From Coleofasciculus sp. LEGE 07092 (GTDB taxonomy: Bacteria; Cyanobacteriota; Cyanobacteriia; Cyanobacteriales; Coleofasciculaceae), in the NCBI RefSeq assembly GCF_015207375.1, contig NZ_JADEWY010000016.1, positions 1-64,000 of the forward strand: a stretch of DNA of 64,000 nt. The letters are read 5' to 3'. Under the pieces are notes generated by a model. That model was not told the origin of the DNA, ran no database searches, and was given only the letters and a program-made list of their open reading frames with translations. This document shows positions 36,927-43,820 of this stretch, piece after piece (the first letter of the stretch is position 1; each line of letters begins with the position of its first letter). The position numbers and the translations under genes are program-made.

Positions 36927-37233
36927 CGTGGTTCTATCCACGCCACGACCCCCTCTTTAAATTCCCAACCCTCAAAATGGTTGTGTCTATTCCCCACTCT
37001 AGTTTCTCATGACCCGGGGAATTGAATGATGTCAGTCGTGATGTAGTTTACAAGGTAGAGGCTGAAATAGCAGCGCTGCGGTATTAGGCTACGAGCTTGC
37101 AACCCTAATTTTACGATTTGCGATCGCCCCTAACACTTTTCACCCCTTAGTGACGTGTTACTTTGTCAAGGCTGCGCTACGCTAGTAGTGTTGGCTAAGT
37201 TATCTATTGAGTTATCGAGTTTAAGAGGAAACG

Positions 37234-37722
37234 ATTATCGCTAAGAAACAACTAATCAACCATCACATCAAGTCTCCTCAGGTTCTTTTAATTGACCATG
37301 AGAACAATAATCGCGGTTTGACGGATACCCGCGAGGCGTTGCAACTAGCTGAGAGTGTGGGACTTGACCTTGTCGTAGTCTCTGAAAGCAAGGATGCTCC
37401 AGTGGCTAAGATTTTGGACTATGGTAAACATCAATACCAACAGAAAAAACGTCAACGCCAAAGCGCTAAACCAACGATGAAGGAAGTTAAACTCCGTCCA
37501 AACGTTGGTGAGTCGGATTACAGCTTACGCATTGATAGAGCCGTCGAGTGGTTGGGTAAGGGTGATTCAGTTAAATTTCAGATTCGTTTACGGGGTCGGG
37601 AACACCAACATCGCGATCGCGCCGCAGAACTATTAGACCGCATTGTCAATGACCTAGGTGAAGCTGGGAAAGTCCAGTCTTTGGATAAACGGGCACTGAT
37701 TGTTCAGGTTACTCCCGGCTAG
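37234..37722 (+). CDS. infC: translation initiation factor IF-3-like protein, AUU start
   Basis: 162 residues when begun at ATT 37234. The frame has an in-frame TAA at 37222 and no ATG, GTG or TTG before TTG 37318, which lies inside the conserved N domain. AAGAGG sits five bases before the ATT. The N domain reads QLINHHIKSPQVLLIDHENN, then TDTREALQLAESVGLDLVVV, as in IF-3. A lysine/arginine linker (YQQKKRQRQSAK) joins the C domain (KEVKLRPNVGESDYSLRIDR; FQIRLRGREHQH). E. coli infC also starts at AUU, by which IF-3 represses itself. The protein is diverged and may be a second IF-3 beside a canonical one elsewhere. Confidence 0.88.
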   Translation: MIAKKQLINHHIKSPQVLLIDHENNNRGLTDTREALQLAESVGLDLVVVSESKDAPVAKILDYGKHQYQQKKRQRQSAKPTMKEVKLRPNVGESDYSLRIDRAVEWLGKGDSVKFQIRLRGREHQHRDRAAELLDRIVNDLGEAGKVQSLDKRALIVQVTPG

Positions 37723-39253: not shown

Positions 39254-39580
39254 TCATTCGTCTTCCTGTTGTTCTAAAATCGCCTCAATATCCCGTGCGG
39301 CGTGGAGAATTCGCACGATTTCAATGTAATCATCAAAAGATAAATAAAAAATCAGGTGCTTCTCAAATCCCTTAACTGACCACTTCCGCAAACCTTCTAA
39401 ACGGGGATTAGTTACTGGATAAGGGCGACCCATCCCTGACATTTGGGCTAATTTAGCACAGGTTTGACGTACTGCATCAAAAAATCGCAAGGCTGTATCC
39501 GAGTTATTCTGGGCGATGTAAGCAAAGTGTTCGTCTATATCTTGGCTTGCCCTTGGCGTGATGACAATGCGTTTGGTCAT
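39254..39580 (-). CDS. ParE/RelE-type toxin
   Basis: 108 residues from the ATG giving MTKRIVITPRASQDIDEHF; the frame is open further upstream but that part overlaps the antitoxin. The pattern ASQDIDEHFAYIAQNN, then GRPYPVTNPRLEGLRKWSVK and IEIVRILHAARDIEAIL is that of the ParE/RelE fold; ParE members poison gyrase. The ATG overlaps the antitoxin stop by 4 bases (ATGA), typical of type II toxin-antitoxin operons. Confidence 0.9.
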   Translation of the reverse strand: MTKRIVITPRASQDIDEHFAYIAQNNSDTALRFFDAVRQTCAKLAQMSGMGRPYPVTNPRLEGLRKWSVKGFEKHLIFYLSFDDYIEIVRILHAARDIEAILEQQEDE

Positions 39581-39828
39581 TCCTGAGTTTGTTGAAGTCC
39601 TTGCATTAACTGAGTGCGTTTTTGCTCCCACCAATCATCTGTCACTTCTATGGGTTCGCCACTATCCAAACCTTCCAGTAATAATGCCTCAACTCGTGCA
39701 GCTTCGGCTTGTTCTTGGAGAATCAGGTGCAGGATGTATTCCGACGCATTGCTATAACCTCCCTTAGCGACTTGTTGCTCGACAAACGATTGAATGCTCT
39801 CAGGAAGCGAAATATTCAGCGGGGTCAT
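39577..39828 (-). CDS. ParD-type antitoxin
   Basis: 83 residues. The N-terminal ribbon-helix-helix region is LNISLPESIQSFVEQQVAKG, then YSNASEYILHLILQEQ, which binds DNA and represses the operon in this family. The acidic C-terminal tail would wrap the ParE toxin encoded directly downstream. Confidence 0.9.
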   Translation of the reverse strand: MTPLNISLPESIQSFVEQQVAKGGYSNASEYILHLILQEQAEAARVEALLLEGLDSGEPIEVTDDWWEQKRTQLMQGLQQTQE

Positions 39829-43712: not shown

Positions 43713-43726
43713 CTGTACTACTAAAA

Positions 43727-43820
43727 GACCCGGAGTTCACGCCTATTCCAAGCATCTCGTATTGCTGCTACCTTCCGGTTCTGGCAAGGTTTGAGCGTTG
43801 GAATCGCATGAATCCGAGTC
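43727..43820 (-). ncRNA. ffs: signal recognition particle RNA (4.5S type)
   Basis: On the minus strand the apical signature AACCGGAAGGTAGCAGCAA has the GGAA tetraloop closed by CC/GG and the AGCAGC side of the internal loop bound by Ffh. Outer pairing is extensive: GACTCGGA with TCCGGGTC, TTCATGC with GCGTGAA, and GATTCCAA with TTGGAAT. A T-run follows the 3' end. Length near 94 fits the small bacterial SRP RNA. It works with Ffh in membrane targeting of nascent proteins. Ends are set by the base pairing. Confidence 0.93.

Follow-up and report, generated by a model that had tools for sequence, protein, structure and literature searches.

A diverged IF-3 paralogue of filamentous cyanobacteria with an apparently conserved AUH start codon

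Start codons other than AUG, GUG and UUG are almost never annotated, and one such codon appears to be kept across a broad clade at an infC-like gene of filamentous cyanobacteria. The gene lies in a stretch of 64,000 nucleotides from Coleofasciculus sp. LEGE 07092 (contig NZ_JADEWY010000016.1, positions 1 to 64,000; hereafter the window), in which an earlier note, made from the sequence alone, had proposed an IF-3-like frame beginning at ATT 37234. The locus raises the questions of where translation of this frame begins, whether the gene is the only infC of its genome, and what a start of this kind would mean for its control. In E. coli, autocontrol of infC was reportedly abolished when the AUU start was changed to AUG, a result ascribed to Butler et al. 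1987 (cited in PMC9845219).

Identity of the gene product

The protein encoded by the window frame matched the Pfam domain IF3_N (PF05198, E = 1.2e−23, 83.5 bits vs. a cut-off of 26.9) followed by IF3_C (PF00707, E = 1.9e−19, 69.8 bits vs. a cut-off of 34.8), and reached 143.9 bits with the NCBIfam infC model TIGR00168, whose curated cut-off is 60. With both domains in this order and above their curated cut-offs it belongs to the IF-3 family, which bears out the first proposal of the earlier note (Table 1). An AlphaFold2 model was built from 21 orthologues (mean pLDDT 86.5) and compared with solved IF-3 domains using Foldseek; the N domain aligned with 1tif at a TM of 0.93 and the C domain with 1tig at a TM of 0.80 (both by target), and both are predicted to have the IF-3 fold. 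The whole-chain TM was low (about 0.5), as is expected for two domains joined by a flexible linker.

Among the E. coli IF3 positions that we take to be the ribosome-binding or functional residues of the C domain, the equivalents of Y70, Y75, R99, Y107, R129, R131, R133, H137, R147, and R168 are kept, K110 is replaced by R, and R112 and R116 are replaced by D and E. The linker and the last C-terminal hairpin are each about four residues shorter than in canonical IF-3, and the basic C-terminal tail is missing; given the shorter linker and hairpin and the changes at R112 and R116, the protein's own start discrimination may be weaker. An Rfam search gave no match at the gene, and no relative was found in the viral contigs searched. 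To judge from its sequence, one gene occupies the locus, an infC paralogue that belongs to filamentous cyanobacteria and encodes a full-length, diverged IF-3.

Table 1 Features at and around the infC paralogue (positions in the window)
Feature	Position	Strand	Basis
infC-like paralogue, 161 codons plus stop; start ATC 37237–37239	37237..37722	+	Pfam and NCBIfam matches; start from 118 orthologous sequences
IF3_N domain	37258..37464	+	PF05198, residues 8–76 reported for the frame read from 37234
IF3_C domain	37477..37683	+	PF00707
Predicted AUC start codon; AUH in all orthologues	37237..37239	+	ATC 91, ATT 22, ATA 5 of 118
Shine-Dalgarno AAGAGGA; last G (37228) 8 nt before ATC; overlaps the in-frame TAA 37222–37224	37223..37229	+	Orthologue columns
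ATT, start proposed by the earlier note; non-conserved leader triplet	37234..37236	+	Ten different triplets there in orthologues
TTG, first common start codon; apparently wrong start, removing 27 residues	37318..37320	+	Codons 2–28 under purifying selection
Possible promoter-like element TGCGCTACGCTAGTAGTG	37174..37191	+	Similar stretches in relatives; putative role

Position and conservation of the start codon

The frame that ends at the stop 37720–37722 is preceded by the in-frame TAA 37222–37224, after which it reads GAG GAA ACG ATT ATC GCT AAG AAA, with ATT at 37234 and ATC at 37237. Scanned from the upstream stop onward, it contains no ATG, GTG or TTG before TTG 37318, and AAGAGG (37223–37228) lies exactly five bases before ATT 37234, both as described in the earlier note. 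In the orthologues, 122 loci were entered after six duplicates had been removed; L071 and L083 did not fit the anchor pattern and stand outside the final set (both ATC by eye), L051 comprises two copies, and the resulting 121 rows hold 118 distinct sequences. Also outside the 118 are L146 (start ATC, gene broken by IS630) and the second copy of genome G354 (ATC). An alternative anchor, the longest Shine-Dalgarno consensus match, proved ambiguous and was rejected, as it often picked TAAG inside the coding sequence.

When these homologues were compared in search of ATT, ATC or ATA starts, AUH stood at the position of ATC 37237, equally spaced from a Shine-Dalgarno core, in 118/118 distinct orthologues, a tally whose rule sought AUH codons near the core and so leans towards AUH (the raw codons were also printed), and in which many sequences are close relatives with shared ancestry. 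The Shine-Dalgarno columns −12 to −8 carry G in 113, A in 112, G in 116, G in 99, and A in 107 of the sequences, and the start codon is directly preceded by T in 113 of them and by C in five. The triplet before it is far more variable, with ATT 57, CTT 25, GTT 16, ACT 10, GCT 3, CCT 2, GTC 2, and one each of GCC, ATC and CTC. An in-frame stop lies at most six codons upstream of the start in 73/118 orthologues, and in 86/118 the stretch that runs from the upstream stop (or over 130 nt) to the LID motif is free of in-frame ATG, GTG and TTG. The other 32 have some common start codon further up- or downstream before that motif, accompanied by a Shine-Dalgarno core in two of them (L009 and L043, upstream); in L137 an in-frame GTG lies inside the gene's own Shine-Dalgarno. 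As an internal isoleucine codon is also AUH, codon identity alone is not sufficient proof of a start, and the stops and the Shine-Dalgarno are needed beside it.

Further downstream, pN/pS was 0.164 (356 pairs) and 0.131 (1290 pairs) for codons 2–28 in two length classes, and 0.166 and 0.213 for codons 29–60 in the same classes. This purifying selection on codons 2–28 indicates that the N-terminus is translated and that a start at TTG 37318 is wrong. In a phylogeny from which the first residue was left out, at least five switches of the start codon were counted, all within AUH; that these codons interchange while AUG, one base away, is absent is what would be predicted for a regulatory start codon. 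Mean z for RNA structure around the start was +0.48 over the 118 sequences (mononucleotide shuffles), which speaks against a hairpin there.

Conservation thus places the translation start at ATC 37237, one codon after the ATT that had been proposed, while the broader claim of a non-canonical start in the class discriminated by IF3 holds in 118/118. With its AUH codon and Shine-Dalgarno the paralogue resembles those infC genes whose start would be discriminated by IF3. That translation begins at ATT 37234 itself is quite improbable: the triplet is in frame, five nucleotides from AAGAGG, and ATT is the commonest one at that place (57/118, with one further ATC, giving two AUH codons in tandem), yet it is not AUH in 60/118 orthologues whereas the next codon always is, and it is to 37237 that the Shine-Dalgarno spacing is conserved. 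With its triplet varying so freely among orthologues, ATT 37234 does not qualify as a conserved start.

A protein beginning at TTG 37318 or a later common start, without the first part of the N domain, is very improbable. Standard, mechanical ORF callers do choose TTG 37318, as the earlier note expected, although the loss amounts to 27 residues when counted from ATC and to the 28 given there only when counted from ATT; a late start is also annotated in two of the three intact Nostoc plasmid copies. Against it, codons 2–28 are constrained as much as later codons, the first downstream common start differs from orthologue to orthologue, and the Shine-Dalgarno position is fixed relative to the AUH codon and not to any downstream codon. 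No support was found for an equally improbable start upstream or in another frame that would reach the IF-3 frame by frameshift or readthrough. Against it, the 60 nt upstream share no ATG or GTG position among the 118 orthologues (the commonest candidates being GTG at −57 in 19/118 and TTG at −24 in 42/118), a stop (TAA, TGA or TAG) often immediately precedes the Shine-Dalgarno, and the latter stands at a normal distance from the AUH.

Distribution and contrast with canonical infC

Close orthologues were present in 21/195 genomes of the order (at least 69% identity and at least 234.8 bits, with the next match at 126.2 bits) and in 25/386 genomes across the phylum (at least 258.1 bits vs. at most 151.8 for other matches), and GTDB contigs gave 80 named paralogue loci. 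Culturable carriers of the gene include Nodosilinea nodulosa PCC 7104, Fischerella thermalis PCC 7521 and Chlorogloeopsis fritschii PCC 6912. A tree was built of 67 IF-3 sequences, 35 of them paralogues; these formed one clade (100/100) apart from the canonical cyanobacterial infC, on a long branch of 1.03 changes per column. The clade grouped weakly beside a non-photosynthetic lineage of the phylum (91/83), a placement that may be long-branch attraction. Conserved features across these genomes, namely the start position, the restriction to AUH, the Shine-Dalgarno, the N-terminal constraint, the single clade, and the contrast with the canonical gene, point to a second, diverged, AUH-started and never AUG-started IF-3 in many filamentous cyanobacteria. 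In the part of the literature covered, no description of a second cyanobacterial IF-3 or of its start codon was found; an excerpt of PMC4971617 contains a gene-count table with two infC copies in 2/4 cyanobacteria and no comment on their starts.

Paralogues also occur on Nostoc plasmids (L143–L146), where three copies are intact. In NZ_CP046705 and AP018320 the annotated start lies 51 nt downstream of the conserved ATC and in AP018319 27 nt upstream of it, while the copy of Nostoc cf. commune SO-36 (L146) is interrupted by an IS630 transposase gene. Truncated or extended proteins of this kind reveal a systematic annotation error in a housekeeping family. A third IF-3-like type (L184–L187, in genomes G125, G139, G147, and G065) is 64–65% identical to the canonical protein, apparently ATG-started, and sits in genomes that also carry the AUC paralogue.

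The earlier note had supposed that the gene was diverged and probably secondary, and the genome of the window does hold a canonical infC, the one other IF-3 there, on contig C134 (G000:C134:8632-9156), whose product is 39% identical to the window protein. The two genes share family and genomes, but differ in their initiation signals and architecture, the canonical one having a GTG or ATG start without Shine-Dalgarno, a longer linker and a basic C-terminal tail. In 24/24 canonical loci from the same genomes (a count that includes L172, L173, and L181), the IN-I-R motif is preceded, at a distance of 11 to 17 codons, by an ATG, GTG or TTG, with an additional GTG or ATG within 12 codons in two of them, and 0/24 of these starts have a normally spaced Shine-Dalgarno core. 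Several canonical genes (among loci L158–L175) read ACG-CCT-GTG where relatives have ATG-CCT-GTG; the former ATG start seems to have shifted to GTG, or ACG is used.

In other lineages AUH starts are annotated for the E. coli-type infC (ATT, L188), Legionella (ATT) and Falsirhodobacter (ATA), and by position the infC of Nonomuraea looks ATC-started and those of two non-photosynthetic members of the phylum ATA-started. As AUH is common elsewhere, it is the paralogue, and not the canonical cyanobacterial gene, that bears the initiation signal usual for infC. Compared with E. coli infC, the paralogue has the same family, domain order, AUH-class start and upstream Shine-Dalgarno (GGAGG in L188), but the E. 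coli codon is AUU, that of most paralogues is AUC, and identity is about 36%; moreover, the thrS-infC-rpmI-rplT context of E. coli is absent at the paralogue, and E. coli has the AUH start on its only infC, whereas here it is on a paralogue beside a canonical gene with ATG or GTG and no Shine-Dalgarno. The infC of S. aureus, for which an excerpt of PMC13009471 gives an AUA start mapped by Ribo-Ret ribosome profiling, likewise combines an AUH start with a strong Shine-Dalgarno on an IF-3 gene, but it uses AUA and is the single infC of a Firmicute and not a paralogue. The genes of the non-photosynthetic sister lineages (L141 and L142) share an apparent AUA after AGGAG and form the weakly nearest tree branch, but are single in their genomes in the phylum search and have a longer tail with a GRN motif. 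The infC of the other lineages sampled (L188–L192, L141 and L142) are sole copies that look AUH-started; that of E. faecalis (L189) is annotated from ATG; an ATA two codons further down, with GGAGG 9 nt upstream of it, may be its real start.

Proposed regulation, and genomes in which the paralogue is apparently the only IF-3

Initiation factor IF3 acts against start triplets whose 3′ base is other than G (PMC4611024, in excerpt). By analogy with E. coli, IF3 on the 30S subunit would disfavour initiation at AUC; plentiful free IF-3, whether canonical or the paralogue's own, would then lower synthesis of the paralogue, and a shortage of IF-3 relative to 30S subunits would raise it, while the strong Shine-Dalgarno would offset the weak AUC codon. 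Such IF3-dependent repression is proposed for the paralogue on the model of E. coli. We consider it fairly probable that the gene, a full IF-3 paralogue started at AUC 37237 with GAGG 8 nt upstream, is a feedback-limited second IF-3 that could stand in for the canonical one. With two IF-3 genes bearing opposite initiation signals in one genome, these cyanobacteria would offer a natural two-gene test of IF-3 feedback.

A division of tasks is also conceivable, albeit tentatively, in which the canonical gene would have lost its IF3-sensing start (it now has GTG or ATG and no Shine-Dalgarno) and be expressed steadily. The paralogue, with AUH and a strong Shine-Dalgarno retained, would then be a reserve for IF-3 shortage that is turned on as free IF-3 declines, its shortened linker would alter start-codon stringency, and in at least one lineage it would have replaced the canonical factor. 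It is rather unlikely, on the other hand, that the AUC start is only a constant brake, that the paralogue cannot discriminate AUH and that any control is cross-control by canonical IF-3. The shorter linker and C-terminal hairpin, the lack of a basic tail and the changes at E. coli 112 and 116 are in favour of such a brake, and a shortened IF3 linker has been reported to impair start-site decoding (PMC8266586, in excerpt). However, the equivalents of all ten retained E. coli residues listed above, from Y70 to R168, are in place, and the AUH start persists in G122 (ATC) as well as in the two copies of G354 (ATA and ATC), two genomes in which a canonical IF-3 was looked for and not found.

Of these two genomes, G122 (three contigs, 100% complete) carries the paralogue with an ATC start, and a search with three queries found no canonical infC in it. 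In the family member G105 the canonical infC lies between a hydrolase gene and a translocase-like gene; in G122 (L207, G122:C1:5111500-5113600) these two genes adjoin, with about 120 bases and no infC between them. Two paralogues, starting with ATA and ATC, were present in the draft genome G354 (99% complete, 120 contigs), in which no canonical infC was found either. The paralogue is the only IF-3 found in G122, and probably in G354 too; G122, a near-closed genome, seems to have no IF-3 but the diverged copy. If IF-3 is essential in these organisms as it is in E. coli, the lack of a canonical gene suggests a paralogue able to act as the sole IF-3, and the persistence of the AUH start without a canonical partner favours self-repression.

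Upstream of the gene, many relatives share a promoter-like element resembling TG(T/C)G(T/C)TA-NNN-TAGTATT, about 40–60 nt ahead of their AUH codon. GTGTTA occurs upstream in 51/118 sequences vs. 3.4 expected from base composition and AGTATT in 43/118 vs. 4.6, both counts being inflated by shared ancestry; a sigma-70 scan returned no promoter-like site at 37174–37191. Elsewhere in the window, the reverse strand carries a pair of genes for a ParE-type toxin and a ParD-type antitoxin whose reading frames overlap (39254–39828) and a bacterial small SRP RNA (43724–43820, 59.9 bits in Rfam).
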